A stretch of 64,000 nucleotides of DNA from Lachnospiraceae bacterium (GTDB lineage Bacteria; Bacillota; Clostridia; Lachnospirales; Lachnospiraceae), in contig CAJTBO010000012.1 in assembly GCA_910573755.1 (NCBI GenBank), forward strand, positions 62,001 to 126,000, given 5' to 3'. Numbering within the stretch: position 1 is the first letter of the stretch; each line of letters opens with the position of its first letter. The notes beneath the pieces were generated by a model. It was not told the origin of the DNA. It did not search any database and worked only from the letters and a program-made list of their open reading frames with translations. The position numbers were made by a program, and so were the translations under genes. Of this stretch, positions 11,888 to 54,462 are shown in pieces.

Positions 11888-14557
11888 TCACTTCGGAAAA
11901 TGCAGCACCACCTTAAACAGATCGCCGTCCACCACGATCTCCAGTTTCCCGCGCATCAGTTCCATCAGGCTTCCCGCGATGGAAAGGCCCAGGCCGCTGC
12001 CCTCGGTATGACGGGAAGCGTCGCCTCTCACAAATCGCTCCATCAACTCATCCCCGGAAATATTCAGCTCATACCGGGAGATATTTTTAAAGGAAATCAC
12101 CGCCTCTTTTTCTCTGTCGTCCAGATCGATATACACCCTTGTATCCGGCTGCGCGTACTTGCAGATATTCTGAACCAGGTTCTCCACCACCCGCCACAGG
12201 TGTCTTCCGTCGGCATTCACAAATACTTCCGCCTCCGGCTTATGCATCACCACATGAAGCCCAGCCGCTGTGATCTTTTCCTCAAACTCCCCCACGGTCT
12301 GTGTCAGAAATACCCCCAGTTCCAGCTTTTCAAGCTGTACCGGTATGCTGCCCGTGGAAGCCTTGGACGCCTCAATCAGATCCTCCGTCAGCTTTTTCAG
12401 TCTCGCGCTCTGGCGCGACAGCACCTCCAGATATTCTTTTGCCCTCTCATTGTCGATCTCTTCCTTCTGCAGCAGATCCACATAGCTGATAATAGATGTC
12501 AGCGGTGTTTTGATATCATGGGACACATTTGTGATCAGCTCCGTCCGGAAATGTTCGCTCTGCATACGTTTCTCCACTGCCAGGGAGATGCCGTCATGGA
12601 TAGAATTAAGCGCGTCCCCATGCTTTTTAAACTCCCAGAACATTTTTTCCGTATTCATCTTTTCCTGCAGATCTCCGTCCGCCAGTTTCCTCGCGCCCTC
12701 TTTCAGCTCATTTGCCTGCACGATGCCAAGCATGATCAGCACCAGCGTTGCAGCCCTGTACAAAAGCCATATCACCACTTCCGCCCCCGGCGCATAAGCC
12801 GTCACCAAAATCCCAAACCATTCCAGAAAACTGATGCCTCCCAGAATAACGATCGCTTTCCACAAAAGAGACAGATTCTCCTGGAAAAACCGCACCGCCT
12901 TTTTCACAAACCTGCCGACCTTTCGACAGATCCATGCAAGACACTTATAGGTCAGCATACTGCGCCACCATTTGCCCAGCTTAAAGCGTATTACAAAATC
13001 AACCAGCCAGATATAGCTTATCAGGTAGCATCCGGCGCTGCAGGCAATCATCAGTGCAAGATTCCAGGGACTCAGACCATAATAGCTGCCTCCCAAAGCT
13101 ATCGCTGCCAGGACACAGCCAATCAGGCATATCAGGGCCGTCTCCACATCCAACGGTATCCTCTGCCAGAATCCCGGTTTTACCGCATCCACCCAGCATG
13201 GCTCGTTTTCCGCAGACTCCTCTTCGTCCTCTGTTTCATTCCATGCAAAGTCCTCTCCGCCTATTGCCGCATCGTCCGTCCTGTTTTCTTCAGCCGCATC
13301 GTCCTGCGCCCGCAATACCGCATTTTTCCTCGCCGCTCTGCCTCTTTGAATGCCTGCGCCGGCCATAGCATAGCTTCCCTTATGTCCTGCCATGATCAAC
13401 ACAAAAACGGTAGATACCACCCATAAAATCAACGAGACAGCCAGCGCCGCGATGGCGCCATAGCGCCATGCAAAGGCATAATTCATCACAAACGTAATCT
13501 GCTCAAATAAATCACCTTCCAGGAAATTATTCCTGATGCCCGTTCTCAAAAGCGGCTCACGCACCCGGGATACCACCCAGTAGCGTTCTGTCCCCTTTTC
13601 CTTCGCTTCTGCAATCTCTTCCGTATTCTCAGTGGCTCTGACTCTCAAAACCTCACTTCCGTCATTGTAGGAATAGAAACGCTCCGCAATGGGTTTTCCG
13701 CGAAACTCTCCTGTCTCCGTATTTCCATCCTCCACAAAACGGATATCCGTATGGTCAAGTTCCACTCCGTCCAGTGTAATTGTGTTCCAGGTTTCCCAGG
13801 ATTTTCCCGCAAAATCGTCAAACGCGTTAAATGTAAGATAATAATCCTTCACCACACAGTCTTCCCGGTTCAGATTATAATAAGTGCCCTGTCCTGAGTC
13901 AAATTTAAACCGCATCTTCTCATCGCTGTTTCCGACAAACAGTTCCACTTCATCCACCCGGTAATATTCCTCTTCCGTCTCGTAATAGAATATACCATCG
14001 GACACGTTATAGTAATAACCGATGATCGGTATTTCCTCCTCTGTCGCGTAGCTCTCATATTCCTCCGCATACACCTCATTATATATGTCGGCATACCCGA
14101 ACAGGCGACAATCCCAGCTATAGTGAGTCCCGCTGCCGATTTCAAACTCCGTGACTCTGACTTCCCCTTTCTCTATCGCATCCACCTCAGGCATTGTCTC
14201 AAAATTATAGTATTCATAACTCGCAGGATCAGATAACTTTTTTATCTCGCGGATATCCGTGATCCCATCCGCTCCCGGATCCTCATCTTTTATGATACCA
14301 TAACGGAAATTTGTCTTATTCAGTTCCTCCTGCATCAGGGGCGACTCCCTGTTCGCCATCGCCATCACCGCATATATTTCGCTGTATCTATCGTAATGCC
14401 TCTCCAGACATTCCTCTTTTGTATCATTGTATGCCCCAAGTTTTCCGATCAGGATGACTGCCACCCCGCTGAAAAACACTGCCGCCGCCGTCAGAAAAGA
14501 CAGGACCGTCAAAGCGGCCTTCAATCCTCTATTGCTCTTCCATTTATTTTTATTCAT
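11888..14557 (-). CDS. Large membrane sensor histidine kinase
   Basis: 889 residues from MNKNKWKSNRG, where AAGGAG lies six bases before the ATG. One N-terminal membrane helix (about 12-35) leads to an extracellular sensor of about 300 residues, then a second helix, an acidic cytosolic stretch and about four more helices (about 490-630). The kinase core follows: H-box NVSHDIKTPLTS with the phosphorylated His near 676, N-box VENLVQNICKYA, G-box GSGLGLSIAGSLM near 854. The signal is unknown. It lies downstream of and faces the same way as the OmpR-type regulator at 15572, its likely partner. The extracellular domain is rich in Tyr and Glu and does not match a family I know. Confidence 0.92.
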   Translation of the reverse strand: MNKNKWKSNRGLKAALTVLSFLTAAAVFFSGVAVILIGKLGAYNDTKEECLERHYDRYSEIYAVMAMANRESPLMQEELNKTNFRYGIIKDEDPGADGITDIREIKKLSDPASYEYYNFETMPEVDAIEKGEVRVTEFEIGSGTHYSWDCRLFGYADIYNEVYAEEYESYATEEEIPIIGYYYNVSDGIFYYETEEEYYRVDEVELFVGNSDEKMRFKFDSGQGTYYNLNREDCVVKDYYLTFNAFDDFAGKSWETWNTITLDGVELDHTDIRFVEDGNTETGEFRGKPIAERFYSYNDGSEVLRVRATENTEEIAEAKEKGTERYWVVSRVREPLLRTGIRNNFLEGDLFEQITFVMNYAFAWRYGAIAALAVSLILWVVSTVFVLIMAGHKGSYAMAGAGIQRGRAARKNAVLRAQDDAAEENRTDDAAIGGEDFAWNETEDEEESAENEPCWVDAVKPGFWQRIPLDVETALICLIGCVLAAIALGGSYYGLSPWNLALMIACSAGCYLISYIWLVDFVIRFKLGKWWRSMLTYKCLAWICRKVGRFVKKAVRFFQENLSLLWKAIVILGGISFLEWFGILVTAYAPGAEVVIWLLYRAATLVLIMLGIVQANELKEGARKLADGDLQEKMNTEKMFWEFKKHGDALNSIHDGISLAVEKRMQSEHFRTELITNVSHDIKTPLTSIISYVDLLQKEEIDNERAKEYLEVLSRQSARLKKLTEDLIEASKASTGSIPVQLEKLELGVFLTQTVGEFEEKITAAGLHVVMHKPEAEVFVNADGRHLWRVVENLVQNICKYAQPDTRVYIDLDDREKEAVISFKNISRYELNISGDELMERFVRGDASRHTEGSGLGLSIAGSLMELMRGKLEIVVDGDLFKVVLHFPK

Positions 14558-20425: not shown

Positions 20426-22261
20426 CTAATCTGAATCAATTTCCGTGCTTTTCTGTTTTACTGTTCCTATCCATGCCGCAAAAAGATTATCTTCCGTATT
20501 TCCGTCATATGAAATATCCCTCACCGTATCAACCTCCACGCAAAACTCTTCCATTATATCCTTAAGTTCTTTTATGTCAAACCAGACTTCCCATTCCGTA
20601 ATCTCAAGCCGCCCCAATGCCTCCTTGTTCTTATCAATCACTATGATCCTTCCGCCCGGCTTTACCACTCTTGCCATCTCCCTGACGGCACTGCGGATAT
20701 CCACCGCATGCTCCAGTGCTTCACATGTATACACCATATCAAACGTATTATTCCGATATGGAATTTCTGTAAGGCTTCCCTGCTTCTTCTCAATGCGTTC
20801 GTCAGTAATATATTTTAATACCCCTTCCGACAGATCAACGCCGCAATATTTGTTTTCAGGCAAATCCTCCAGCAAATTGTTCAGGTACCTGCCTTTGCCG
20901 CAGCCAACATCACAGATGATTAAACCATTGTTCTGTTCTCTCATTTCCGAAATTTCTTTCAGTACAAGCTGATATCTTCCGTCTTTCCTGTCAATAACAG
21001 GAAGAAAGCTATCCGCCCAAAGGTTAAATTCAGCAAGATTTTTATAATATAAGGCATCCAGAAAATATTTTACCGCCCAACTGATTTCTGCTGTCGGGAA
21101 ATAATCATTATCCTCATCTTTACTATCTTCCGAGAGATAACTCCCAAACCATCCACCCGATTCATTCTGCAGCTTACAGGCATAATCAAAAGCCCGGTTT
21201 CCTCTGTCCATATCTCCTATCCTGAACCACACCAGCGCAAACTGAAATAAACCTGTGGAACATACCCAGTCCACGTTCTGATACGCAGGAACAGCTCCAT
21301 TATCCTTCTGCAGACATGCCACCTTTTCCATTGCCTCACGCGCCATTTCTGTCTCTCCCATATCTAACAGCGCTTCCATCACATAGGCATAAAAATGAGA
21401 CAGAAAACCAAAATTCATGATTTCTTCATAATGGTTTTCCTTGTAATAATTGAGCACTCTAAATGCTGCTTCTTTATATTCGGTCTTTCCCAACTGTTCA
21501 GCCGCTTCCACCAATGGAGAAAGGCAATACAAGTGAATCAATTCCGAACACATTCCAGGATTTCCCCACGCGGCCTTAGACGGCGTTGTGAGTCTGCCAT
21601 CTTTTTGTATATTTGTCAAAATCCAGTTGCATCCTTTTATAATATGTACGTCCGCCTCCGGGTATATCTCTCTGATTGCGATCAGTCCCTTTAAAATCTG
21701 CGCACTGTCAAAAACATACGGTTCTCTGTCATCGGTATCGTACCATGAACCATCCGGCTTCTGTATTTCACACAGCCATTTTGCAAAAGAAACTGCCAAG
21801 CCGCGGTATCCCCATTTTAACAGAGTGGGAATATAATATCCCGTAACCTCAGGATACCCTTTTCTCTTATCTGAATTGCAAATAATCGCTTCACTGTTGA
21901 CACTGTTATCTTTAATCCAGTTAATAGCTTTCCGAAAAATTTCTATGTAATTTGTGCGGCTTTCCAGTTTTTCCCTTGTAAGTTCTGTCTGTATATCCTG
22001 AATCGTCCTGTAATTGGATATCCCGAGTTTTTCCAACTGAGAAATAATCTCATCCTGATATTTTCGGGAAACAGAGATAATAATCTGCCTGTCTGCCAGA
22101 TCTCCAACCTCTTTTGGCAAAGCTTTTACTGATATCGCCTCTATTTTAGTTCCCCATTTATCAGGATTATTATCATAGATGCATTCTATCTTTTCTCTTC
22201 CTAATAAACTGATTGCGCTTTCCGCGTATGCTCCGGCACCAAATAATGTTAATTTACTCAT
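20426..22261 (-). CDS. Three-part methyltransferase: Rossmann-like, alpha-toroid and SAM domains
   Basis: 611 residues. Residues 1-95 (LTLFGAGAYAESAISLL, YDNNPDKWG) are the island's recurring nucleotide-binding-like domain. Residues about 105-400 are helical with QKPDGSWYD, QKDNGAVP and NESGGWFG repeats, like the alpha/alpha toroids of terpene cyclases and some glycoside hydrolases. Residues about 440-600 are a class I methyltransferase with DVGCGKGRYL, EALEHAVD and VVKPGGRIIV. The substrate is unknown; being at the end of the phosphoramidate module, O-methylation of the phosphoramidate or of a sugar is a fair guess. About 250 bases of apparently empty sequence separate it from the upstream gene. 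Confidence 0.82.
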   Translation of the reverse strand: MSKLTLFGAGAYAESAISLLGREKIECIYDNNPDKWGTKIEAISVKALPKEVGDLADRQIIISVSRKYQDEIISQLEKLGISNYRTIQDIQTELTREKLESRTNYIEIFRKAINWIKDNSVNSEAIICNSDKRKGYPEVTGYYIPTLLKWGYRGLAVSFAKWLCEIQKPDGSWYDTDDREPYVFDSAQILKGLIAIREIYPEADVHIIKGCNWILTNIQKDGRLTTPSKAAWGNPGMCSELIHLYCLSPLVEAAEQLGKTEYKEAAFRVLNYYKENHYEEIMNFGFLSHFYAYVMEALLDMGETEMAREAMEKVACLQKDNGAVPAYQNVDWVCSTGLFQFALVWFRIGDMDRGNRAFDYACKLQNESGGWFGSYLSEDSKDEDNDYFPTAEISWAVKYFLDALYYKNLAEFNLWADSFLPVIDRKDGRYQLVLKEISEMREQNNGLIICDVGCGKGRYLNNLLEDLPENKYCGVDLSEGVLKYITDERIEKKQGSLTEIPYRNNTFDMVYTCEALEHAVDIRSAVREMARVVKPGGRIIVIDKNKEALGRLEITEWEVWFDIKELKDIMEEFCVEVDTVRDISYDGNTEDNLFAAWIGTVKQKSTEIDSD

Positions 22262-22510: not shown

Positions 22511-23536
22511 CTACAATCTTTTTGCTCCAACAAATAAATTGACATCACCAGAATAATTTAAATATGGCATTTTGATAATATTTACAAGCTTATAGCCCGT
22601 CTCTGTCAATAGTGTATACAATTTATTTTCATCAAACTGCCGTACATGAGTAACACTTTCACAATTTTTACCGTATGGTACTGATATAAATAAACTTCCA
22701 CCTAATTTTAACATTACTTTTATTTTCTCCAATATCTTAATTGGATTCATTACATGTTCCAAGCATTCCTGACATACTACCACATCAAACTGTTTGTCAC
22801 AGACAAAATCATCTTCTATACTTGAATGTATACATTCCATTCCCATTTTTTGTAAATATTGTACACGTTTTATACTCTGATCTACCCCACAGGTTTCGAA
22901 CCCCTCTTTCTTTAATTCTATCATCAGTTCCCCATGTCCACATCCGAGATCCAAAACAGTTCTCTTTAGCCCCTTTTCATTTGAAAGAAGAATATTTTTC
23001 ACTAATCTCATACCAGGTCGATTTTTATAATATTCATCCTCATATATTTCATCCGAGGAATAAATCCCTTCTAAAAATAATTTAGTCCTCTCCGTTTCTC
23101 CTCTTCTCATCATCTCGACAAGTTCTTCATTTTCTTTTGAACAAAACTCTTTTCGAAACCAGTTCCCGTTCTCAGTTATATACGCCCTGTTTTTCAATTC
23201 CGTATCATACTGATATCTCCATAATAAATTATTATCTATTTCTATCAGAACATCTTCTCTGTCAAAGTAACAATTTACATTATGTTCATTATTCCAATAT
23301 GGAATACCATAATGATTAAATTGCTCCTCCACTTCAGCAGAATGAAACGATAAAATCACATCATAACTATTATATATTTTTATCAATTCTTTAAAAGAAA
23401 TGATTTTTACTCCCTCAATTACCCCCCCATGTTTGTCCCTATCATTATCTACAAAAAAATCTACCTTATTTCTATTTAATTTATCTAATAACTTCAATCC
23501 TTTTTTTCCCGCTCCAAAAATAATAACCGGCTTCAT
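22511..23536 (-). CDS. Methyltransferase with N-terminal nucleotide-binding-like domain
   Basis: 341 residues from MKPVIIFGAGKKG; GGAGGAAG lies eight bases before this ATG. Residues 1-85 hold FGAGKKGLKLLDKL and FVDNDRDKHGG, the recurring island domain. Residues about 180-330 are a SAM methyltransferase with VLDLGCGHGEL, CGVDQS and CQECLEHVMNP. It follows the phosphoglutamine cytidylyltransferase-like gene by 24 bases. In C. jejuni, two methyltransferase genes (Cj1419, Cj1420) also lie beside the phosphoramidate genes, so this is one candidate for the O-methyl step. Base composition is clearly more AT-rich than in the housekeeping genes. Confidence 0.82.
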   Translation of the reverse strand: MKPVIIFGAGKKGLKLLDKLNRNKVDFFVDNDRDKHGGVIEGVKIISFKELIKIYNSYDVILSFHSAEVEEQFNHYGIPYWNNEHNVNCYFDREDVLIEIDNNLLWRYQYDTELKNRAYITENGNWFRKEFCSKENEELVEMMRRGETERTKLFLEGIYSSDEIYEDEYYKNRPGMRLVKNILLSNEKGLKRTVLDLGCGHGELMIELKKEGFETCGVDQSIKRVQYLQKMGMECIHSSIEDDFVCDKQFDVVVCQECLEHVMNPIKILEKIKVMLKLGGSLFISVPYGKNCESVTHVRQFDENKLYTLLTETGYKLVNIIKMPYLNYSGDVNLFVGAKRL

Positions 23537-23560
23537 AAATAAATCTTCCTCCACTTTATT

Positions 23561-24343
23561 CTATATCCTCAAAATGCTATAAATACTGCCATCCCCTACC
23601 CAATCACAAGCCTTTTCATAATCATCATTTGTGTCAAATTCTATCCAACCGTTTTGAAACCGTTCAGCTTTAACCTCCTCTCCGGACTGTATCACCGCAT
23701 TGAGCAAATCTGTCATATATGCTTTTTGCACTGTTTTCCCTGACTGCTGCCATGGCATATCCTTAAAGTTCCTGCAGGCATCATCATATATTTCAGTTAT
23801 GTAAGCCAGTCCCCTCTGCGAAAATTTTAGCAATCCTACATATCTCGCATCAATATCATTTAACTCAGGATTCTCAAGTCCTAATTCTATAATATTATTT
23901 TCATCATCCAGAGAAAGGCTTTCCGTATCAAAATCTGCTCTGCCATATCGCTTTTCCCAATATACCTTCCAGTTATCATCTACAGCGACAGCAAAGTCTC
24001 CTTCTGCCGCCATCATCTTTCTCAGCATCCGCTCTTCAAATAAAATATCTGAATAACTTACAATGACATCATCATTAAATTCCGGCTTAGCTTCCATTAG
24101 AGATACAACCATATTCGTGTTCTCGAAATCTTTATTGGTATAATAAACAATCCCCTCATAACAGATTTTTTCTGCCGCAAATCCTTTTATAACAATGATG
24201 TTATCTATCCCACACTTTCGATATATTTCTATTTGTCTTTCTATTATAGTTTTTCCCATAAAGGATAACATACCCTTAGGTAAATTCTCCGTATATTTCT
24301 TTAATCTGGTTCCCTGCCCAGCTGCCAAAATAATTGCTTTCAT
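23561..24343 (-). CDS. Nucleotidyltransferase, candidate CTP:phosphoglutamine cytidylyltransferase
   Basis: 260 residues from MKAIILAAGQGTRLKKYTEN; TTCAGGAGGG precedes the ATG, and the reading further upstream belongs to the neighbour. The LAAGQGTRL nucleotide loop, NLPKGML lysine and SYSDILF acidic metal motif mark a LicC/RmlA-like sugar-phosphate nucleotidyltransferase. Cj1416 of C. jejuni, from this family, joins CTP to glutamine phosphate to make CDP-L-glutamine. The start overlaps the stop of the hydrolase gene by four bases, and the kinase partners lie upstream. Specificity rests on context. Confidence 0.85.
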   Translation of the reverse strand: MKAIILAAGQGTRLKKYTENLPKGMLSFMGKTIIERQIEIYRKCGIDNIIVIKGFAAEKICYEGIVYYTNKDFENTNMVVSLMEAKPEFNDDVIVSYSDILFEERMLRKMMAAEGDFAVAVDDNWKVYWEKRYGRADFDTESLSLDDENNIIELGLENPELNDIDARYVGLLKFSQRGLAYITEIYDDACRNFKDMPWQQSGKTVQKAYMTDLLNAVIQSGEEVKAERFQNGWIEFDTNDDYEKACDWVGDGSIYSILRI

Positions 24344-24954
24344 AAGATTTCCCTCCTGAATAATGACTTCACGCACATAATATCCGTCTCCTGAAAATTT
24401 TTTTCTCTTTCTGGATGCCACATAGTTCCTCGAATATGATATTTCTGATGGCAAATTTCCTCTATAACATTATCCTCCGTTCTGGAAATCACATTGAGTT
24501 CAGACTGATCCGCCAATTCCAGACATGCCTGTCCATGATAGCTGTTTACTTCCCTTACCCCATCCCTTCCATAAACATTATGTCGTACTGCTACATGGCC
24601 TTTCACATCTGTCAGTTCATTCCCAAAATAATCCAATATAGACTGCATTCCTCTGCAAAATCCATATAATGGTATATATTTCTTAATAGCTATTTCAATA
24701 AGCTTTTGATCTGCCTTATCTCTTTCCGGTGCATTTCCCCCATATTTTTCCAGGCTGTTTCCACCTGTCAATATAATTCCAGCCGGTTGTAATTGTAAAA
24801 CAAATTCTTCCAATATTTCAACTTTATTTGGTATCGGAATCGGCAAAAAATCACATGCAACTATAAAATCAGCAATCCTCTGATCTGCACAGTCTCTGCG
24901 TTCCTGATAACTTTCAACTATTTCTACCCGTTGTGTATAAAGAACTTTTTGCAT
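24340..24954 (-). CDS. Class I glutamine-amidotransferase-like hydrolase, candidate gamma-glutamyl-CDP-amidate hydrolase
   Basis: 204 residues from MQKVLYTQRVEIVESYQERR; GGGAG precedes this ATG, which lies just after the previous gene's stop. Peptidase C26-type fold: ILTGGNSLEKYGG, the nucleophile elbow GFCRGMQ with Cys near residue 98, and the HPE of RGTMWHPEREKNF. Cj1417 of C. jejuni, of the same family, hydrolyses CDP-L-glutamine to glutamate plus cytidine diphosphoramidate. Gene order hydrolase then cytidylyltransferase, with overlap, supports the same pathway. A general gamma-glutamyl hydrolase role is the main alternative. Confidence 0.84.
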   Translation of the reverse strand: MQKVLYTQRVEIVESYQERRDCADQRIADFIVACDFLPIPIPNKVEILEEFVLQLQPAGIILTGGNSLEKYGGNAPERDKADQKLIEIAIKKYIPLYGFCRGMQSILDYFGNELTDVKGHVAVRHNVYGRDGVREVNSYHGQACLELADQSELNVISRTEDNVIEEICHQKYHIRGTMWHPEREKNFQETDIMCVKSLFRREIL

Positions 24955-24955
24955 T

Positions 24956-25687
24956 TTATTCTCCCGATATTTCATGAAAACCCATATCCAATAAAGCCAC
25001 ATGCTTCAACACTGGGTGAATAATAAAATAGTCTTCCGCTCTTTCATTTTCCTGACTACTTGCTACCAGTTCACCCTCTTTAACATATTTATTCAGCACA
25101 TCCATCAATACCTGTGATCGTATATATGGTTCATAAATATAATCCGTATCAACCATTTCCTGCGGCAATTCATATGTATTCTGAGTAATTATCTCTCCAC
25201 AATCAATCTTCTCATTTAAAAATATAGCTGTCGCCCCTACCTGCTTTTCCTGAAGATAACTAAAATAAAAAGTGGTGCTCCCCCTGTATTCGGGAAGTAT
25301 TCCCGCATGAATATGTATAAATTTTTTATCCAACTGAAATAAAGGTTTTTTTAATATCTCTCCTCCGTATCCCGAATATATCAAATACTTTTCTCTACAT
25401 TTCCCAATTATTCCTGCCATCTGCTCTGAATTAATATTTTTATTTTCCACCAAAATATATGGTATATTTGCCTTTCTCAGCGAAAAAATAATAGGACAAT
25501 CTACATCAAAATATTTTTTCGAGTAGTGTTCTTCTTCATATATTTCCGCTCTCTCTTCCATCCTCTTACAATTTTCCGAATATATAATACACATTGCAGG
25601 AAGTTTCTCTCCCTGTATCATCGCTTGTATGTATGCTTTTGACCTTGCTGTATCGGCCGCAATCATTGCAAAATCACTCAGTACCAT
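24956..25687 (-). CDS. Formyltransferase-family protein
   Basis: 243 residues. The central part reads FIHIHAGILPEYRGSTTFYF, matching the HxxxLPxxRG folate/catalytic motif of methionyl-tRNA and sugar N-formyltransferases; the later NEKIDCGEII supplies the conserved aspartate region. The first 100 residues are divergent. It most likely transfers a formyl group from N10-formyltetrahydrofolate to an amino group of a sugar or other small molecule. No such enzyme belongs to the C. jejuni phosphoramidate set, so this is an addition inside the module. The start overlaps the preceding gene by 14 bases, indicating coupling. Confidence 0.78.
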   Translation of the reverse strand: MVLSDFAMIAADTARSKAYIQAMIQGEKLPAMCIIYSENCKRMEERAEIYEEEHYSKKYFDVDCPIIFSLRKANIPYILVENKNINSEQMAGIIGKCREKYLIYSGYGGEILKKPLFQLDKKFIHIHAGILPEYRGSTTFYFSYLQEKQVGATAIFLNEKIDCGEIITQNTYELPQEMVDTDYIYEPYIRSQVLMDVLNKYVKEGELVASSQENERAEDYFIIHPVLKHVALLDMGFHEISGE

Positions 25688-26237
25688 TTTTATCCCCCAA
25701 TACTATTCCATGCTTTTCTAATAATGTACAAAAGATTTTCAGTTCCTCGGAAATAACTGCTGATAAATGCTCTCTTTCCCAAAGAGTTAATAAGGGATAA
25801 ATCGAAAGCAACATATCATCTACTTTTAATAGACAACTATAATATTTCAAGCAATTTGTCTCTTTATAAGCTTCCAGGAGACAATCTGAAAATATTAAAT
25901 ATATCTCATAAACTTCAAATAAAGCTTTCTCTGTTGGTTTCCAATCCAGATACTCTGTATAAAGTCTTTTTCTTACCTCAAAAGTTTTTACATATGGCTT
26001 AATCCTGTTTACAGCATCTCTGTCACCTTTTCTAATATCTGAAAAAATACACTTCAGGTCCTGATACACCATACTATCACTCTCTATCCTATTTTCCGGT
26101 TTCGAAAACTCGGTCATTCCTCTGGCAATTTTTCTGGACTTTAAATACTCTTCCAAGAATCTTTTTCCTTCATATTCTGCATATATATAAGTCTGTTTAT
26201 TATATAAATTGTTCTCTGTAATATACTTATAGGACAT
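25674..26237 (-). CDS. Unknown helical protein within the phosphoramidate module
   Basis: 187 residues from the second ATG (MSYKYITENN), which has GGAGG nine bases upstream; the first ATG is too close to it. Helical, charged, Tyr/Leu/Glu-rich, no signal peptide or membrane segment and no motif I recognise. It overlaps both neighbours (kinase-like upstream, formyltransferase-like downstream), so it is a tightly coupled member of this operon and may be a scaffold or small-molecule enzyme of the same pathway. Confidence 0.75.
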   Translation of the reverse strand: MSYKYITENNLYNKQTYIYAEYEGKRFLEEYLKSRKIARGMTEFSKPENRIESDSMVYQDLKCIFSDIRKGDRDAVNRIKPYVKTFEVRKRLYTEYLDWKPTEKALFEVYEIYLIFSDCLLEAYKETNCLKYYSCLLKVDDMLLSIYPLLTLWEREHLSAVISEELKIFCTLLEKHGIVLGDKNGTE

Positions 26238-26760
26238 ATCCATTTTCCTCCAGATAACTCACTATTTTTTGTACGCTTTCTTCCACTGTTTCTTTCTCTG
26301 TATCTATCAAAATGTCATAATCCTCAGGTACTTCATACACATCATTTGCTCCATTCAGATTACTGATTTCACCTTGATAGAATTTTTTATAATACCCTTT
26401 CACATCCCTTCTGGCGCATTCCGACAGAGAACATTTCACATACACCTCAATATAGCATTCTGCAAACTGTTCGCGAACCAGTCGTCGCATTTCTTTATAT
26501 GCCGCAACCTGCGCCAAAATCACAGATATCTGATTATCAATCAAATAATTTACTACCACCCGCACAGCACGATTACATTTCATCCTCTCTTCATATGTAT
26601 TTCCAAAGATATCACCAAACTGTTTTCTTATAATGTCCCCATCAATTACCTGTATCCTTTCCCTGCCACAAGATTCTAATTTTTCCTGCAGTGCATTTGC
26701 AATAGTTGTCTTGCCACTTCCGCTCATTCCTATAAGGTATATCATAAAAACCTTTTCCAT
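26227..26760 (-). CDS. APS-kinase-like kinase, candidate cytidine diphosphoramidate kinase
   Basis: 177 residues. The P-loop is IYLIGMSGSGKTTIANAL; VIDGDIIRKQFG follows, the substrate/Mg region of adenylylsulfate kinases, and later NRAVRVVVNYL and YVKCSLSECARRD. In C. jejuni, Cj1415, an APS-kinase homologue, phosphorylates cytidine diphosphoramidate at the 3'-hydroxyl. No sulfate-assimilation gene is nearby, and the glutamine kinase-like gene ends two bases upstream, which favours the phosphoramidate role. AAAGGA, seven bases before the ATG, overlaps that gene's stop. Confidence 0.85.
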   Translation of the reverse strand: MEKVFMIYLIGMSGSGKTTIANALQEKLESCGRERIQVIDGDIIRKQFGDIFGNTYEERMKCNRAVRVVVNYLIDNQISVILAQVAAYKEMRRLVREQFAECYIEVYVKCSLSECARRDVKGYYKKFYQGEISNLNGANDVYEVPEDYDILIDTEKETVEESVQKIVSYLEENGYVL

Positions 26761-26762
26761 AT

Positions 26763-29102
26763 TTATATCCTTTTCACTATTTTATTTAAACAGTCAATCA
26801 ACATCTTATTCCACTTTTTCCACTCCGAATAATTTTTCTCACCAGCTCCGATAACCGCAGGAATTCCAAGTTCAGCACATCTGATAGCCATATGTGAATT
26901 CGCTCCTCCAAACTGCGTAATCAGGCCTGCAATATTCTTAGAAAACAGAAAATCATATCCTGGATCAGCTGCCTGAATAAAAACAATTTTCCCTTCCGGA
27001 GATTCCTCACTTATCGCATCCATGACCAATACTTCTGCCATGATACTTCCCTGCGTAATAAAGTTTGGTTCTTCATTTAACAAATAAAATGAATACACAT
27101 TCTCTGGCTTTACCAATATGCTAGGCAGCTTAACCTGAACTGCAGTTTGATATTGCTTTTTATTATCAGAAATATTTTGTTCAAAAATAGCCCGAATATC
27201 TCCTGTATACAAATCCGAATACAAATGTTTTACTACGGAAATATCCAAATATGCCATATCCTCTTTTAAAATATCAGCTCTTTTGCCCAGTTCCTCGATT
27301 AATTGCAATATTTTACTGACCGCCTTTGTAAAAACAAATTTTAAATGCTCTCTCCCCTCTACAGCCGCCTTAATAAATTGCATCAACTCGTCTGCTGTTA
27401 CTAAAAGACCGTTCTGTTCAAGCTCAAGCTGAATTTTATTCATCTGTTCTTTGTTAAAAGAATATTCACCTCCGTCGTTTTCTATCGTTAAATATGAATT
27501 TTTATCAAAATATTCTTCAAATGCCTCATCATAACGTTTTGATGTAATATCATACGTTCCAGGACGTATATGCCCATATTCGCCAATAAATTTCTCAAAT
27601 GTAATTTCTCCGGTAAAATATTTTCTTAAATCCGAATTCATTCTCTTATTTATAGTATCCAGTGAATTCATATATAAATCATAATCACTTTTTGTCAGAA
27701 TTCCTGTTTCCACAAAAGACCTTAAAAACTGAACGGCAATAAAGGCGGCTCTTGCCACTCCCGCAAAGGGCAAAGTCCCATACATTTTACACTCTTCCAT
27801 GAGCCAGTATATTTTATCTACCAAAGAAATATCCGAATGAAGTATAGTCTCATAGTTTAACTCAAGCATCTTTATTTTATCTATATCTTTCTTATATAAT
27901 CCTTTCTCAGGACAGATAATACGATTGGTCAAATCTAACAATGAGTATTCTATTCTGGAAATTTCATTTTCATTAAACCCATACCGGAGCAGTTCTTTTA
28001 ATTTTTGAGGCAACCCCAAATAATAACAGGAATATACTATTTCAAATTCTACTTTATCATGATATTTGGGATACTTCGCCAGTTTATCTTGATAATAGTC
28101 TACTAATTTTTCTGCAATTTTTTCATTTAAGCTTTGAGGTATAAAAGAATTAAACGTAATTCGAGTATCGATATATGGTACTCCGCAAAATGATACCATT
28201 AATGGATGCATAGTCAGATTGCGATATCCATAATCGTATCTCTGATGTGCCCAGATACTGTCAGTTATCAGTTCTTTATATAAGGAAATAGCCAGCTTTT
28301 TAGGACGAATTCCAAGTATCTCCGCCGGATTCCAGTCAGTCATAACTCCAAAACAGGTGGTATGTCCTAACAAAAACGGATGCTCCTGGGATAATTTTTT
28401 TGCTTTCTTATAGATACGTTTCAGTGTAGATACAAGGTCAATGTTTTCCGTTACTGCCTTTTCATTTTTTCTGGCTATCGGCCTTACCTGCAATATGTAA
28501 ACTTCTCCCTCATCTGTAATTGCAAACTCTATATCAAGTGCATCATTCCTTAAAAATATTTCAATCTCTTTACAGGTATCCAACAAATTTTTCATATCAT
28601 GATCTTCTATAGGAAACTCACTGTTTTTATATCTGATATAAGTATTAAGGTTATTCGAACTCCCTCCGGTCACAGCGGCCGAATCACATCCGACATTATA
28701 ATTTACTGTATAATATCCCGCAAGTGTCTCAATATCCGATGTAAAAACAACACCTGAACTTTTTATGTTTTTCAACATAGGTTGTATCAGAATCTGTTCA
28801 TCATTATTTGTTTCATATGATGCATAAACATCGGCAACTGCCTTCTCAATATGTACAGGATCAGGTGAAACATTAATAACAGATTTGAACTTTCCTGCAT
28901 TTGAATACCCCTTTGTATCTTCCAAAACAGAAGAAGAACGAACAATCAGCAGTTCACCTTGGGAAAATTCTATAATATGCATTATTTCAGCCGCACGGTG
29001 TTTAAAAAAATTATTACTTCTGACAATATAAACAGGTAAAATATTCAATGACGAAATATTTCTTTTTAAATACTGCAACATTTCTGCCTTTGTATAATTC
29101 AT
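26763..29102 (-). CDS. PEP-synthase-like phosphotransferase, candidate L-glutamine kinase
   Basis: 779 residues. The N-terminal ATP-grasp part contains IVRSSSVLEDTKGYSNAGKF and ends VYILQVRPIA; a long central region is unlike PEP synthase (no PEP-binding barrel is evident); the C-terminal swivelling domain has FGGANSHMAIRCAELGIPAV with the phospho-carrier His at residue 737. Cj1418 of C. jejuni has this layout and size and phosphorylates the side-chain amide of glutamine through a phosphohistidine; I recall its histidine carries the same number, to be verified. First of the phosphoramidate enzymes in transcription order. Rifampin phosphotransferase-like function is the alternative, but the context argues against it. 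Confidence 0.88.
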   Translation of the reverse strand: MNYTKAEMLQYLKRNISSLNILPVYIVRSNNFFKHRAAEIMHIIEFSQGELLIVRSSSVLEDTKGYSNAGKFKSVINVSPDPVHIEKAVADVYASYETNNDEQILIQPMLKNIKSSGVVFTSDIETLAGYYTVNYNVGCDSAAVTGGSSNNLNTYIRYKNSEFPIEDHDMKNLLDTCKEIEIFLRNDALDIEFAITDEGEVYILQVRPIARKNEKAVTENIDLVSTLKRIYKKAKKLSQEHPFLLGHTTCFGVMTDWNPAEILGIRPKKLAISLYKELITDSIWAHQRYDYGYRNLTMHPLMVSFCGVPYIDTRITFNSFIPQSLNEKIAEKLVDYYQDKLAKYPKYHDKVEFEIVYSCYYLGLPQKLKELLRYGFNENEISRIEYSLLDLTNRIICPEKGLYKKDIDKIKMLELNYETILHSDISLVDKIYWLMEECKMYGTLPFAGVARAAFIAVQFLRSFVETGILTKSDYDLYMNSLDTINKRMNSDLRKYFTGEITFEKFIGEYGHIRPGTYDITSKRYDEAFEEYFDKNSYLTIENDGGEYSFNKEQMNKIQLELEQNGLLVTADELMQFIKAAVEGREHLKFVFTKAVSKILQLIEELGKRADILKEDMAYLDISVVKHLYSDLYTGDIRAIFEQNISDNKKQYQTAVQVKLPSILVKPENVYSFYLLNEEPNFITQGSIMAEVLVMDAISEESPEGKIVFIQAADPGYDFLFSKNIAGLITQFGGANSHMAIRCAELGIPAVIGAGEKNYSEWKKWNKMLIDCLNKIVKRI

Positions 29103-29111
29103 ATTATAACC

Positions 29112-30866
29112 TCAATTTCCAAATACAATTTTTTTACTCTCGACACATCTAGAGCGCAGATACTTCACCCGTTCTCTGCATTCCTCATCATCTATAAAAT
29201 TCTGAGATTCTCCAACTGATTTTTTATAATAGTACTCAGTGCCATTTTCCAAACAAACATATTTTTCATTTGCAAAATTTAAACCACAATATCCTTCGCA
29301 TATTTCTTCATATTCCTCTGCCCTCTCTCGTATTACAGTTTTAAATCCTTCTGAGTAAATCGGAATATCATTAAAAAACATTTCTTCTGGCTTTGCTGCT
29401 TCCATAACCCATTGTACTAATTTATCAAAATCATGATAGCAAAACAGCCTTTCCATTTTTCCACAAATACCTGCATTCGTTACCCCTAATAACGTATGCA
29501 TCGCCTCATCTTTAAACCTGCGTCTGTCAATATCCTCCCACTTTCCATGATCGCTCATACAGATATTGATCATTCCGTCTCCAAAAAGACTATCGTAAAA
29601 ATCCATAACATCATCTATATACCTTGCTGATAATACGATCTTCTCCTGTGCTGATTTATAAGAATCATAAAATTCAAACGCTCTATTTTCCCAGTCCACT
29701 TCAGGAGACATATACGGTTCATGTGCCTCGTTTAAAACATGTACTATTCCAAACACTGGCTTTTCCGAATTTAAAATATAATTGAGCATTCTGAAATAAT
29801 GCATCCCCGATACCACATTCTCTCTATTATAATCCTGACTATAATCCTTAAATAAAATTTGATTAAGATACCCGCATATTTCAAAATGATACCCTTCCGA
29901 TATTATTTTCTTATATAATTCGCTTTCCTCCATTTCTTTTTCTTCATAACTTCTGGAAACGCTTCTGCCCTTTCGAAATTCTTTCCAGAAAATCATTCTC
30001 GCTGTAGGCTGTGTATATGGTGTATGCGTATATGCATTCACAAAATCCAATCCATTTTGCATCCTATTTCTCATTTTGGGAAGCAAATCTCTCTCGTCGA
30101 AACTAATTTGATCTACCCAGTGAACTATAATATCTTTGTTTCTATTCTTCCTTTTTCTTCTGCCGAGTTCTTCTTTTATTTCCCGCAAAAAATCTTCCAC
30201 TTCTCTTTTCAATATTTGCAGCTCTGTCTTACATTTTATCAGTTCCGCTTCTTCCTCCACATATTTAAAAAAGGATACAAAGTCTCTCAATATAAGACAA
30301 ATGCCTAAAACCTTCTTCAAGTTTCCCAAAGACTTATTCAAAAGAAACTCTTTTCTCACCTTTCCCAATAAATTATGTGTATAATCATATTCATTTTGAT
30401 AATCATCATATGGCCTGTCTACAATAATACTGTATTTTATTCGTATACTCCTGTATAAATCAATAACATAAATTCCTTTTGGCTCTAATTTTTTCTTTAC
30501 TTCATAGTATATATTTTTCCCCTTCGTAACCGCATTAATCAAATATATATCACATTCCTCTTTGGACGGATTCCACAAATCCCCAAAAAAGTCCACCGTC
30601 TTTTCTGAAGAAATAACTAATTTATCAGAAAAAGGATTCTGATCTACGACCGCTGTAATATTTCCGACATTCTCGACTAATTTACATAAGGAATAATCCC
30701 CATTCTCATGATATTTCACTCCCCTGACTACAATTTTATTGCCATACTTCTTAATCGCCTCTTTCAATTCGGTACATATTATGTCTGAAAGACTGTCTCG
30801 AAAATATGTTCTCTCAATCAAATGGTATTTTTCCACTATTGTATCCAACTTCTTTTCAATATCCAC
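29112..30866 (-). CDS. Alkaline-phosphatase-superfamily protein, candidate transferase
   Basis: 584 residues from a GTG with AAGGAGG six bases upstream; a TTG seven codons earlier lacks support. The N-terminus (about 30-120) has a weak version of the island's nucleotide-binding-like domain (VVRGVKYHENGDYSL, VVDQNPFSDK). The C-terminal half has FGIVHVLNEAHEPYMSPEVD and the metal-binding NICMSDHGKWED, the C-terminal signature of sulfatases and phosphoethanolamine or LTA-type transferases. The nucleophile region is not obvious. About 600 residues, soluble. Its position just before the glutamine kinase gene suggests transfer of the finished phosphoramidate; unproven. Confidence 0.75.
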   Translation of the reverse strand: MDIEKKLDTIVEKYHLIERTYFRDSLSDIICTELKEAIKKYGNKIVVRGVKYHENGDYSLCKLVENVGNITAVVDQNPFSDKLVISSEKTVDFFGDLWNPSKEECDIYLINAVTKGKNIYYEVKKKLEPKGIYVIDLYRSIRIKYSIIVDRPYDDYQNEYDYTHNLLGKVRKEFLLNKSLGNLKKVLGICLILRDFVSFFKYVEEEAELIKCKTELQILKREVEDFLREIKEELGRRKRKNRNKDIIVHWVDQISFDERDLLPKMRNRMQNGLDFVNAYTHTPYTQPTARMIFWKEFRKGRSVSRSYEEKEMEESELYKKIISEGYHFEICGYLNQILFKDYSQDYNRENVVSGMHYFRMLNYILNSEKPVFGIVHVLNEAHEPYMSPEVDWENRAFEFYDSYKSAQEKIVLSARYIDDVMDFYDSLFGDGMINICMSDHGKWEDIDRRRFKDEAMHTLLGVTNAGICGKMERLFCYHDFDKLVQWVMEAAKPEEMFFNDIPIYSEGFKTVIRERAEEYEEICEGYCGLNFANEKYVCLENGTEYYYKKSVGESQNFIDDEECRERVKYLRSRCVESKKIVFGN

Positions 30867-30905
30867 AATACCCCTCCTTATTTGCAAAGTATTGCATTTT
30901 TATTT

Positions 30906-32778: not shown

Positions 32779-35271
32779 TCAAATCCCTGTTTCCTTTACT
32801 TTCATTAATATTTTTTCTCCGCAATCAACTCTCTTCTCTGAATGAGAATCCTGTTTTTTATTTAATTTATTCATCCAATCCTCCAATTTAAATAGACTAT
32901 TTTCTTCCATTTTTAATTGTATTATCTCTGAAAAAATATTTTTTAATTTATTTATCTCATCTGCCGATAATCTCATAAAAAACTCGCGTTCCAGTTTTCC
33001 TTTATTAAATTGATACATAACATATTTATCTCTTGAGAAGTAAAAAGAAACATTTTCATCTATACTGTTTAAACCATCAATCCCGCTATAATATATAGCA
33101 TACAAACTTCCCTTATTATTTTCTATCATCTCCCTTGTTTCAAAAATAACTTCTCCCCTATTATTTATAATTTTTATTTCATGATCATATGTTGGATCAA
33201 TCATAATGAACTCCGAAGAAATAGTTGTTATTTTAATTGCCTCATAGGGAATCTTATTAAATTCTCTTTCCCTCATATTTTTTATGTTTAATTCAATAAG
33301 AGCTTGTGAACTTTTATTAAATAAAAACAAAGAATCTCCCATACTGGCAATCGCTACTATCTTTTTCCTATCTTCATCCAATTTTTTAATTTCCAATACA
33401 GAAGTATCCATATTATAAAAGAGCAATTGATTATTATGAACATTAATAGCTGCTATATTATTTTCAATCTTTGCAACATCCGTAATATAAATATCCCCCA
33501 TCTTACCAATTACTGTATATTCTATTTCTTCGCTTTCCATATTTATCTTTATGATTGCTTCATATAAAAAAGGAATACAATATAAATATTTCCCCTTCGC
33601 ATATGCTCTTTCAAATAAACCTTTTTCGCTGTATTTTTCAATATTTTGAATAAGAATTTCCGTAAATTTGTTTTCTTTGATGTTGTAAACCATCAGTTTC
33701 CTCGCAAAACATGGAATCAGATAAATCTTTTCGTTCCATTTATAGACCGCAGAATATAACATCTCCCGAAACATTTTTTCTTCTGGTACCGTTCCTACAA
33801 TGTAAGTATGATTCTCTATCATATTATAATGCATTAATGCATTTATCTTCCCATGAACAAACCATATATCATCCCCGTCCACGCAAAAAGCACAAGGCCA
33901 GATTGGAATCGCAACTTCCTCTTCCACAGAATTTTTCACTCTGGTATTCTGATATAAAACAGGTTTCTTAGCTTCTTCATACAACTGCACAACAGAACTT
34001 CCATCCCCATAATACGCGTCTGTTTCTGCAATCGCCCAGTTAAGATCTTCTCCTGCATCAAATATCCCCCATCCTTCCTCCATATAATTCTCGACTATCT
34101 TCCTATAAACCGGCAACATTTCCGGACGCATAGATGCTAACGTTGACTCATACAATGGATGAGGCCTCCACCATAATACACAATCTTCCCGCTCTTTAAA
34201 AAATGCCAATGTATCTGTAATCTTCTCCATCATATTATCCTGATTCAGCAAATCATGCAGACTGGTATTATAGAAAATAACTTTCTTACGGATTCTATTA
34301 CTATTATAAATTAAAGAGTGCCACCCATTAGAAAGAAGATCATCATTTCGTTTCGTACTATGAACACGGTCTAATTTAGGGGAACCCAAACCAAATATTT
34401 TAGCTTCCCAATATTTCCTGTTTACATTTGGAATCTCTTTTTCCAGAATGTTCACATACAATCGTTTCATATCTTCCGATTGCACAAAAACCAAGTCTGA
34501 ATCAGTCACTCCTGGTTTTACCACGAAACCATTCTTCTGTTTTTGCGTTTCTATACAATCTGGATTCGGTTCTGGTGACACAAAATATGGAATATATGCC
34601 ACTCTTTCCACATATTTTTTTAATTCCGGAACATAATATGCCGGATGAATGCTGGTTACATAATTATATTGATCATATGGATTATGTATAAAAGCCACAT
34701 TTGGTCTTCTTTCTGCCAAATTATAATCCATATAATGTATTATAGGCACATCTTTCGGAAACTGATTTCCTTCATAATGCATAATAGCAAGTTCTCCTTG
34801 CTCATTTTTCTCATAATAAGGAATCGGCACCACGTACGCATCGCACTCCGGATCTTCATTTGCTGCTTTCCATACGCTTTCCAACGAATCCCACATAGAT
34901 GCTTTATAAGGCAGAAAAACTATTTCGATTTTATCTTCTTGCATGCCATAAATTATATTGTTCTTTAAATCTGTTAATTGCCCTGTTATCTTTTTTATTA
35001 TTTTTCTACATATATATACATCTGATAGATTTTGACTGATCTGATATATATTTTCACAATAGTCTTCTAATAAAGGAACAGATTTTTCCCCAATATCTCC
35101 CAATGTTTCCAGACAATTTCCTAACAGTATCGCCATCTCCTGACATTGGGTAAGAATATCAACTATACTTTCTATTTCATTACCTTTCTTATAATTTAAA
35201 GTTATAAAATTGTTCCCCTCAATCAACAAATCAACTGTTTCAAGTATATCTTTCTTTTTATACTTTTTCAT
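32779..35271 (-). CDS. GT-B-like transferase fused to a beta-propeller
   Basis: 830 residues. After a helical N-terminus (1-110), residues about 115-470 resemble the CDP-glycerol glycerophosphotransferase group: IEIVFLPYKASMWDSLESVW, VAFIHNPYDQYNYVTSIHP, LWWRPHPLYES and YYGDGSSVVQLYEEAKKPVL, the last being the donor-binding signature. Residues about 475-760 are blades of a beta-propeller with repeated strands such as LYCIPFLYEAIIKINMES. A cytosolic polymerase or transferase that adds phospho-linked units is likely. AAGAGG lies five bases before ATG. Strongly AT-rich coding sequence. Confidence 0.78.
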   Translation of the reverse strand: MKKYKKKDILETVDLLIEGNNFITLNYKKGNEIESIVDILTQCQEMAILLGNCLETLGDIGEKSVPLLEDYCENIYQISQNLSDVYICRKIIKKITGQLTDLKNNIIYGMQEDKIEIVFLPYKASMWDSLESVWKAANEDPECDAYVVPIPYYEKNEQGELAIMHYEGNQFPKDVPIIHYMDYNLAERRPNVAFIHNPYDQYNYVTSIHPAYYVPELKKYVERVAYIPYFVSPEPNPDCIETQKQKNGFVVKPGVTDSDLVFVQSEDMKRLYVNILEKEIPNVNRKYWEAKIFGLGSPKLDRVHSTKRNDDLLSNGWHSLIYNSNRIRKKVIFYNTSLHDLLNQDNMMEKITDTLAFFKEREDCVLWWRPHPLYESTLASMRPEMLPVYRKIVENYMEEGWGIFDAGEDLNWAIAETDAYYGDGSSVVQLYEEAKKPVLYQNTRVKNSVEEEVAIPIWPCAFCVDGDDIWFVHGKINALMHYNMIENHTYIVGTVPEEKMFREMLYSAVYKWNEKIYLIPCFARKLMVYNIKENKFTEILIQNIEKYSEKGLFERAYAKGKYLYCIPFLYEAIIKINMESEEIEYTVIGKMGDIYITDVAKIENNIAAINVHNNQLLFYNMDTSVLEIKKLDEDRKKIVAIASMGDSLFLFNKSSQALIELNIKNMREREFNKIPYEAIKITTISSEFIMIDPTYDHEIKIINNRGEVIFETREMIENNKGSLYAIYYSGIDGLNSIDENVSFYFSRDKYVMYQFNKGKLEREFFMRLSADEINKLKNIFSEIIQLKMEENSLFKLEDWMNKLNKKQDSHSEKRVDCGEKILMKVKETGI

Positions 35272-38580: not shown

Positions 38581-39771
38581 TTAGTTTTTCTCGCCCCCAA
38601 CCTTCGGCATAATAATCTCCCCAATAATAAACTCCGCCACCTTCTCTATATCTTCAAATTCCACAAACTTCGGCAATTCTGCCCCAAAAGCTTTCTTTAC
38701 CTTTTCAATCAGCCCATCCGTATAATACAACCTGCCATCTCTGACATCTTCTATCCCGTCAAGTGCCATCGACTCTCTGTTTACCCTGTTCATTTCCTCA
38801 AAGCCAAATACCGACTCATCTATCCATGCATCTATTCTGCCGCCCCTATAACCGACCAAAACCGGATAACCTCCTATATTCCCAAACACTCCCGGCGTAA
38901 ATACTCTCTGATTTTCTTTTTTCCTGACAGCATCTATCACTGCCATAATAATCTGATAATTGCTGGATGCGTTCATCATATTCCTCTGTGCATCTACAGG
39001 CATGGCAATCTTACATGCTGCAAAGATCTTTTCCTTCTGCAGATCCTTTTCCTCTCCCCTGTAATACACTTTAAGCGGCAGATCCACGCCTTCCGTCTGC
39101 CCTTCCTTACTGATACAGACATCATGGAAATGACCTGCTGCAAACATCACGTCCACATTCCAGAAATCTTCCGCATTTAACATCTTTGCCGCTGCAAATT
39201 TCATTCTGGGCACAAGGTGATTCAAATTTCCGGATCCGAAATCCGGATAGGCCTTCCCTGCACTCTTAAGCCATGGGATAACCGCATCAGAGTATGAGGT
39301 GTTGATCACTACCGCATCCGTGTCCGCCGCATCACATGCCTCCATGATATTCTTTGTAAACCGGATCGCAAGCGGGCTCCATATCCCATAAGCCCGGACA
39401 TTCGCCCAACTGATACTGCCATACTTTAACCCCGGATAAGCCCGGCTGGAATTTACAATAAAATCCGGCTTATACTTTTCAACTGCTTTCTGTATTGATC
39501 CAGTGTCCGTCAGGTCAACCCCCGCCTCTATATCAATGCCGGACTTATTCAATCCACGAATCAATCCGGCAACCCTCACGATATTGACATTCTTTTCCAT
39601 CTTTTCATAGTTTCGTCCCACTGCTACGATACGAAGCGCAGGATCATTGCTGCTCACCAGATAGTCCAGCAGATATGTCCCCACACTGCCGAGCCCTATG
39701 ATCATAACCGTAACTTTATTCTCCTTTACATGCTGCTCTACTGTCTGCAGTCTTTCCTGCAACGTTTTCAT
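38581..39771 (-). CDS. Rossmann-fold oxidoreductase of the phosphonate section
   Basis: 396 residues. After a short coiled N-terminus comes MIIGLGSVGTYLLDYLVSS, a GxGxxG dinucleotide-binding loop, followed by VAVGRNYEKM. Later segments (FIVNSSRAYPG, VFTPGVFGNIGGYPVLVGYR) resemble saccharopine dehydrogenase-like reductases, but no family is certain. It overlaps the nucleotidyltransferase gene by four bases (ATGA). In this context it could reduce phosphonoacetaldehyde, or act on an intermediate made from it, since no aminotransferase or iron-type alcohol dehydrogenase is present. That assignment is inference only. Confidence 0.7.
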   Translation of the reverse strand: MKTLQERLQTVEQHVKENKVTVMIIGLGSVGTYLLDYLVSSNDPALRIVAVGRNYEKMEKNVNIVRVAGLIRGLNKSGIDIEAGVDLTDTGSIQKAVEKYKPDFIVNSSRAYPGLKYGSISWANVRAYGIWSPLAIRFTKNIMEACDAADTDAVVINTSYSDAVIPWLKSAGKAYPDFGSGNLNHLVPRMKFAAAKMLNAEDFWNVDVMFAAGHFHDVCISKEGQTEGVDLPLKVYYRGEEKDLQKEKIFAACKIAMPVDAQRNMMNASSNYQIIMAVIDAVRKKENQRVFTPGVFGNIGGYPVLVGYRGGRIDAWIDESVFGFEEMNRVNRESMALDGIEDVRDGRLYYTDGLIEKVKKAFGAELPKFVEFEDIEKVAEFIIGEIIMPKVGGEKN

Positions 39772-40538
39772 CTCTCTGCCTCCCAGTATTTCTGAATCTG
39801 TCTAAAATCTCCGCGCGTATTACAGTTCGTCCACCTCTCCAGACAAACAATTTCTATTTCTCCCTGTGAAATACGGTCAATATATTCCTGTATGATCAAC
39901 AGATTTGTTTCCTTTTTATCTTTCTCATAAAAGACCCTGTTTGCAGTTTTCAGCTTTTCCATATCTTTGAACTTCCAGAGCTGCCCCGAATTGTAGATAC
40001 TCGAAAAAGGTTCTTTTATATGCAGCAATCCATGTTCACTGCTAAAAAGATATTTATATGCACCTTTCCCGTTCTGATATAAGAGCACATCTCTGCTCGC
40101 CTGAATCGGACTGCGATGATAGGTAAGCACATTACTGTCTGTATTTACTACCGCCTCAAAGGATTTATTATCTATATCCAGATCTCCCTCCACAAAAAGT
40201 ATCTCTTCCAAATCCGGCAGATAAAACGCCTCTTCCAGTCCGAGATACAGACTATAACCGGATGTCAGATCCGCATAATGTTCATTATAAAGCAGTGTGA
40301 TCTTTTCCTTTTCTTCCTCCGGAATCTGCTCGGTGATATACCGTTCCAGATCCTCAAACTTATAACCGCCGACCACAATAATCCTGTCAGCATAACTGCA
40401 TTTTTTCACCAGATGAAAAAGCAATGTATCTGATAAATTCCCTTCTGTATATATAGCCTTCAGGCATCTTCCGGCTTCCTCTATTCCTTCGTTAAACCGG
40501 CTGGATATCCCGGCTACAGTAATAACTGCTACCTTCAT
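39768..40538 (-). CDS. Divergent nucleotidyltransferase of the phosphonate section
   Basis: 256 residues from MKVAVITVAGISSRFNEGIE; AAGGAG lies eight bases upstream, while the frame upstream of it has no ribosome site. The loop AGISSRF is a changed version of the usual AAGxGxRL, followed by CLKAIY, IIVVGGYKFEDLERYI and VEGDLDIDNKS, as in LicC-like and PntC-like (phosphonate cytidylyltransferase) enzymes. It may activate a phosphonate with CTP. Translationally coupled to the oxidoreductase gene. Confidence 0.75.
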   Translation of the reverse strand: MKVAVITVAGISSRFNEGIEEAGRCLKAIYTEGNLSDTLLFHLVKKCSYADRIIVVGGYKFEDLERYITEQIPEEEKEKITLLYNEHYADLTSGYSLYLGLEEAFYLPDLEEILFVEGDLDIDNKSFEAVVNTDSNVLTYHRSPIQASRDVLLYQNGKGAYKYLFSSEHGLLHIKEPFSSIYNSGQLWKFKDMEKLKTANRVFYEKDKKETNLLIIQEYIDRISQGEIEIVCLERWTNCNTRGDFRQIQKYWEAER

Positions 40539-40640
40539 CTTTTCGACTCCTTTTTTGCCCTCTGGCCTCGCAAAATCACCTGCCATTTGCCATTTCATCT
40601 CACTTTATAAAAAACTCAGCCAAACAGCTTTCCATTTTCA

Positions 40641-44378: not shown

Positions 44379-44421
44379 TTTCACTCCCATTCGCCGCTTC
44401 ATCCGGCATTCCCGATATTTT

Positions 44422-54385: not shown

Positions 54386-54462
54386 ACCGATAACCATGTC
54401 CTTTCCAAATTCAGCAGATATCAATGCATATAACCTGCATACTATGCAGGCATAAATTCTCC

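Follow-up and report, generated by a model that had tools for sequence, protein, structure and literature searches.

A putative Campylobacter-type phosphoramidate gene core in a flagellin island of a Lachnospiraceae bacterium, with an apparently undescribed, putative tailoring module

A 64,000-nucleotide stretch of a Lachnospiraceae genome (assembly GCA_910573755.1, contig CAJTBO010000012.1, positions 62,001 to 126,000; hereafter the window) carries, in a Gram-positive flagellin island, what appears to be a phosphoramidate (P–N) gene core of the Campylobacter jejuni type together with a candidate tailoring module. The source genome measures 4.88 Mb and has a listed completeness of 95%. Six genes run on the minus strand from 29102 to 23561, abutting or overlapping by a few bases, in the order glutamine-kinase-like protein (GK, 26763–29102), APS-kinase relative (26227–26760), U1 (25674–26243), FT (24956–25687), C26 hydrolase (24340–24954) and nucleotidyltransferase (23561–24343); the last two begin at ATGs inside somewhat longer, mechanically called open reading frames (ORFs). 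A sequence-only reading had earlier assigned four of these genes to one P–N pathway, and ORFs of the families it named were found for all four, on the minus strand and in the same operon; U1 and FT, which lie interleaved among them, were missing from its set. The product of the operon is probably a phosphoramidate in nucleotide-activated form, destined for a surface glycan and most likely for that of flagellin. Judged by gene content and homology, the core donor is very probably made, while the odds that flagellin glycan is the acceptor are about even. The three-enzyme core and the proximity to flagellin hold up from the earlier proposal, but its kinase is by identity nearer to true APS kinases than to the C. 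jejuni enzyme.

The phosphoramidate core and its neighbourhood

Full-length homology and cross-phylum synteny both speak for the putative P–N core of glutamine kinase, phosphoglutamine cytidylyltransferase and hydrolase. The 779-residue GK shares 45.5% identity with the protein of the C. jejuni locus L067 over 778 aligned columns, and it scores 951.7 bits against NF004508 (cut-off 501) versus 30.2 bits for the rifamycin phosphotransferase model. Everything expected of a predicted glutamine kinase is present, namely the PPDK_N and PEP-utilizers domains and the catalytic His. Since the motif GGANSHMAIR begins at residue 732, this His is residue 737, as had been read before, and it is likewise residue 737 in the C. 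jejuni protein. The nucleotidyltransferase (NTP_transf_3), a putative CTP:phosphoglutamine cytidylyltransferase, aligns with its C. jejuni counterpart over the full length (32.6% identity, 258 columns, 127 bits). It scores 290.8 bits against the GK-linked profile, which matches only 39768–40598 (22.8 bits) among the other 29 window proteins, and it belongs to the same GK-linked family and occupies the same place beside C26 as the C. jejuni enzyme. The C26 hydrolase (Peptidase_C26/GATase), 31% identical to the C. jejuni protein, is a putative gamma-glutamyl-CDP-amidate hydrolase. Its best NCBIfam model is the one of that name, NF045546 (112.8 bits), followed by a model at 37.1 bits, and its Cys100, His180 and Glu182 are conserved throughout an alignment of 75 rows, two of which are the C. 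jejuni protein. The GABA hydrolase model PRK11366 reaches only 34.8 bits. Two of the other identities that the sequence-only reading had allowed for, a rifampin phosphotransferase in the case of GK and a GABA hydrolase in the case of C26, score far below the pathway models.

The gene set recurs around GK in distant bacteria. An alignment of four GKs was run against GTDB genomes; at least 592 stretches matched, 555 of them encoding relatives, and the best 80 loci, fetched by GK alone, were kept and their neighbours recorded within 5 kb. These 80 loci span 13 named phyla, with four further records unplaced, and 26 of the loci are Bacillota. The partner found most often is the nucleotidyltransferase (75 loci), followed by C26 (73) and the APS-kinase relative (60); 55 loci have all three, and several of the missing neighbours fall at contig ends. 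In Bacillota, C26 and the nucleotidyltransferase are present in all 26 loci and the three partners together in 21. This co-occurrence bears out the earlier judgement that the set did not meet by accident. The closest named kin of the window GK in the GK tree are Lachnospiraceae.

Two results weigh against the assignment of the core. The C26 score lies under the NF045546 equivalog cut-off of 250 bits. In a control on the family of the window, 10 of 299 genomes matched NF004508 above its cut-off at the E-value used, and the six-gene cassette was present in three of the ten, i.e., the window's genome (G000), G273 and G104, while the GK of G251 runs off its contig. The fetched surroundings of six divergent NF004508-positive proteins of the same family contained no match to the APS-kinase relative, C26 or the nucleotidyltransferase. 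The NF004508 name alone therefore does not prove a glutamine kinase, and it is the gene set that counts.

The proposed steps follow the reactions of C. jejuni Cj1415–Cj1418, which other papers describe in part. The nucleotidyltransferase would join phosphoglutamine to CMP, and the C26 hydrolase would remove glutamate from the resulting CDP-L-glutamine to leave cytidine diphosphoramidate. A 3'-phosphate would then come from the APS-kinase relative. Where Campylobacter adds a methyl group, U1 and FT would modify the phosphoramidate in another way, and U3 or U2, both described below, would act as the transferase that moves it to the glycan. A 2022 review terms glutamine kinase C. jejuni-specific (PMC9561416), and a 2019 review describes the modified sugars as so far known from Campylobacter only (PMC6429109). 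Given the phylum range of the best 80 relatives and the invariable presence of C26 and the nucleotidyltransferase in the Bacillota loci, surfaces decorated with P–N groups may be common among bacteria, including Gram-positives.

The flagellin link and the acceptor

In Firmicutes, flagellin is found close to GK genes more often than uniform placement predicts. In the window, the flagellin gene (54619–56088, minus strand; Flagellin_N 1e-42, Flagellin_C 4.4e-26), one of three PF00669 matches in the genome, is followed by a long minus-strand run of glycan genes. We located PF00669 matches and GK genes in 23 genomes (24 GK genes) and read their distances from position tables. The survey drew on 21 of the 28 GK loci that are Bacillota or unplaced (L029, L053), with L048, L051, L057, L059, L068, L081 and L103 left out, plus G000, G273 and G104. 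PF00669 also matches flagellin-like filament proteins, and a match need not be a flagellin. For ten GK genes (G464, G463, G450, G458, G446, G000, G459, G104, G460 and G461), a same-strand flagellin lay no more than 30 kb upstream, against 0.46 expected, an expectation that ignores the clustering of flagellin genes and a count that includes the window's own genome. With flagellin anywhere within 30 kb, the number rose to 13 (adding G455, G456 and G462) against 1.9 expected. In the closest relative, G446 (locus L029), the distance is the same as here, about 27 kb, and the compact locus L098 holds flagellin, a glycosyltransferase, U3, GK, C26 and the nucleotidyltransferase in a row.

The same activated phosphoramidate could instead decorate a capsule or wall polymer, with flagellin a mere neighbour, and we regard this as unlikely but worth weighing. 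The C. jejuni decoration sits on the capsule according to the 2022 review (PMC9561416). Flagellin glycan as acceptor also has against it that for 11 of the 24 GK genes, some of them on short contigs or near contig ends, the 30 kb on either side hold no flagellin, and that the island's several glycosyltransferases and its LicD could serve another polymer. However, a neutral neighbour would not be expected upstream on the same strand as often as it is (ten genes against 0.46), and L098 starts directly with flagellin and a glycosyltransferase. Flagellin glycan stays our preferred acceptor.

The transferase at the end of the pathway has two candidates. U3 (32779–35271, minus strand) is GT-B/TagF-like over residues 115–460 and may be a CDP-dependent phosphoramidate transferase. 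U2 (29112–30887, minus strand), of the alkaline-phosphatase superfamily, may be a phosphoramidate transferase or hydrolase; it has no Pfam match of its own, and its homologues match Sulfatase under the cut-off in L029 (8e-4) and over it in L043 (3e-8). A further point against the proposed pathway concerns the DUF2972 family (Cj1421/Cj1422), which lies beside the C. jejuni cassette and which, from this position, we take to hold the O-methyl phosphoramidate transferases. It matched none of 30 window proteins at E 1e-3, and the choice of a final transferase is for that reason a guess. L048 and L057 each have an ORF that combines a LicD domain with a U3-type domain, in the neighbourhood of a GK cassette of the methyltransferase type.

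The type A flagellin glycan of Clostridioides difficile (CD0240–CD0244) is a related Gram-positive system, for which cytidylyl activation and a TagF-like transferase have been proposed, as far as the available sections of the paper show (PMC10714395). It differs in that phosphothreonine is attached via a phosphodiester, and those sections name neither a glutamine kinase nor a C26 hydrolase. By analogy, the window pathway could stop at CDP-L-glutamine, or another amide could be phosphorylated, so that the product would be a phosphate-linked amino acid and no simple phosphoramidate. The cytidylyltransferase and TagF-like transferase of the type A model, as given there, resemble the nucleotidyltransferase and U3, but the C26 hydrolase retains Cys, His and Glu and has the CDP-amidate hydrolase model as its best match, which makes this outcome quite improbable.

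The APS-kinase relative

The APS-kinase relative (APS_kinase 8.4e-37), a putative cytidine diphosphoramidate 3'-kinase and possible orthologue of Cj1415, is assigned to the pathway with less confidence. It is 34.9% identical to E. coli CysC (104 bits) versus 30.4% to the C. jejuni L067 kinase (76 bits), and 30–32% identical to the Campylobacter kinases of L067, L073 and L075; it also passes the NCBIfam apsK model TIGR00455 (149.2 bits, cut-off 138.7). The kinase is thus nearer to true APS kinases, an outcome that the sequence-only reading had itself named as speaking against a Campylobacter-type enzyme, and it weighs against the proposed pathway. When 95 sequences were placed in an unrooted tree, a single branch (support 97/95) set the 30 presumed true APS kinases apart from the rest; the window kinase belongs to a clade of six that sits between them and most of the other GK-linked kinases, the C. 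jejuni type included. The gene is the sole PF01583 match in the genome. For ATP sulfurylase, no PF01747 match was found in the 95%-complete genome, and CysD reached only 26.5 bits, below the cut-off; it is because no ATP sulfurylase was found that we retain the kinase in the pathway. A true APS kinase should group with the APS kinases and be accompanied by an ATP sulfurylase; neither was seen here, although TIGR00455 is passed. Some GK loci, such as L098, have no APS-kinase relative nearby.

A true APS kinase serving a sulfated glycan, with GK, the nucleotidyltransferase and C26 as a separate set, would agree with the TIGR00455 score and the closeness to CysC, but it is the least probable of the explanations weighed here, given the missing ATP sulfurylase, the absence of a sulfotransferase family among those listed for the 30 scanned window proteins, the position outside the 30 presumed true APS kinases and the placement of the kinase gene between GK and C26.

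The U1–FT module and the phosphonate branch

The window shares with C. jejuni the clustering of GK, C26, the nucleotidyltransferase and an APS-kinase-family kinase, and the GK His737, but its kinase comes from another branch, and U1 and FT stand where C. jejuni has its methyltransferases and DUF2972 protein. The earlier account passed over this replacement. Of the 80 loci, 57, that of C. jejuni among them, have a Cj1419/Cj1420-like methyltransferase (profile criterion 1e-20) no more than 5 kb from GK. FT is found in six (L029, L032, L062, L063, L099 and L106) and, with the window, L013 and L015, which are FT-type loci outside the 80, in nine loci altogether. The two types occur together within 5 kb in none of the 80. 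No protein of L013–L016 or of the window reaches the methyltransferase criterion; the top window scores, 19.7 bits for 20426–22261 and 12.6 bits for 22511–23554, are far from it.

We read U1 and FT, an apparently undescribed pair, as a new way of tailoring within the phosphoramidate pathway. U1, a helical protein and the partner of FT, has no Pfam or NCBIfam match at E 0.1; its AlphaFold model predicts six helices (mean pLDDT 83) and has no clear PDB match. A U1 profile seeded with the window, L029, L013 and L015 was searched against all ORFs of L013–L141 and found FT-type loci only, the matches beyond the seeds being L032 (a broken gene), L106, L063, L099 and L062; in L063, U1 forms the C-terminal part of one ORF shared with the APS-kinase relative. 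FT has a formyltransferase fold (Formyl_trans_N 1.5e-9). Folate-dependent formyltransferases carry a catalytic Asn-x-His ... Asp, as known from PurN. FT departs from this motif, with HxH replacing NxH in all nine cassette FTs (HxH ... D), whereas NxH is present in E. coli PurN, Fmt and ArnA and in 9 of 11 other formyltransferase family members of the fetched loci, the remaining two (L058, L104) being fragments without the motif. A metal site at the HxH is a guess. The FT label appears at five places on the GK tree (L062, L063, the Lachnospiraceae clade, L106 and L099; FastTree, local support only).

On the simplest reading, U1 and FT would swap the methyl group for another cap, and the chances that they act on the phosphoramidate at all seem evenly balanced. 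Against such a swap, an unrelated methyltransferase (22511–23554) directly follows the nucleotidyltransferase, likewise in L029, and methylation by an enzyme not of the Cj type is therefore possible. Moreover, 17 of the 80 loci have neither tailoring type nearby, and the cap may thus be dispensable. In L030, a 359-residue ORF (12858–13937) takes the position that U1 and FT have in FT-type relatives, with the APS-kinase relative on one side and C26 on the other, and is perhaps a third tailoring flavour. We tentatively propose, somewhat short of even odds, that a mobile U1–FT module, whose formyltransferase-fold enzyme may bind a metal at its His-x-His, replaces O-methylation at the five places on the GK tree and gives a differently capped phosphoramidate. 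By the same proposal, one flagellin glycan here receives the products of both the P–N and the phosphonate (P–C) branch, and next to each branch lies one of two paralogous proteins of the alkaline-phosphatase superfamily. Such a tailoring module would, if real, represent new chemistry, and it is testable because cultured species carry each flavour: Jannaschia donghaensis CECT 7802 (L099) has the FT flavour and Anaerotruncus colihominis DSM 17241 (L097) the methyltransferase flavour, while neither was seen in Natronincola peptidivorans DSM 18979 (L043). A literature search, thin in its coverage of subscription papers, turned up no phosphoramidate on a Gram-positive flagellum and no formyltransferase in a phosphoramidate pathway.

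The P–C branch lies on the minus strand, separate from the P–N cassette. It includes a fusion of CTP_transf_like and PEP mutase domains (43083–44402; PEP_mutase 1.4e-56) with the motif EDKVGLKKNS, which fits EDKXXXXXNS; fusions of this kind were counted in an earlier study of phosphonate tailoring with PEP mutase–nucleotidyltransferase fusions (PMC6697681). The adjoining TPP enzyme (44422–45555; TPP_enzyme_N and _C) is a putative phosphonopyruvate decarboxylase because of this neighbour. The alkaline-phosphatase-superfamily protein beside them (45566–47419, minus strand; Sulfatase 9.8e-11) is homologous to U2 (hhalign 99.7%, 532 columns). The families listed for the 30 scanned window proteins include no aminotransferase, and the phosphonate may therefore not be aminoethylphosphonate. 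In L071 (Campylobacter) and L055 (Helicobacter), genes resembling PEP mutase and phosphonopyruvate decarboxylase lie close to the GK cassette, so P–C and P–N genes meet elsewhere too.

Two more island genes lie towards the flagellin. A cytidylyltransferase-like domain fused to a GFO_IDH_MocA oxidoreductase (50678–52021) adjoins LicD, and a large family-2 glycosyltransferase with weak TPR matches (52193–54424, minus strand) adjoins the flagellin gene. The G+C content of 2-kb blocks is 0.300–0.348 at 22–38 kb versus 0.385–0.529 in the remaining window.

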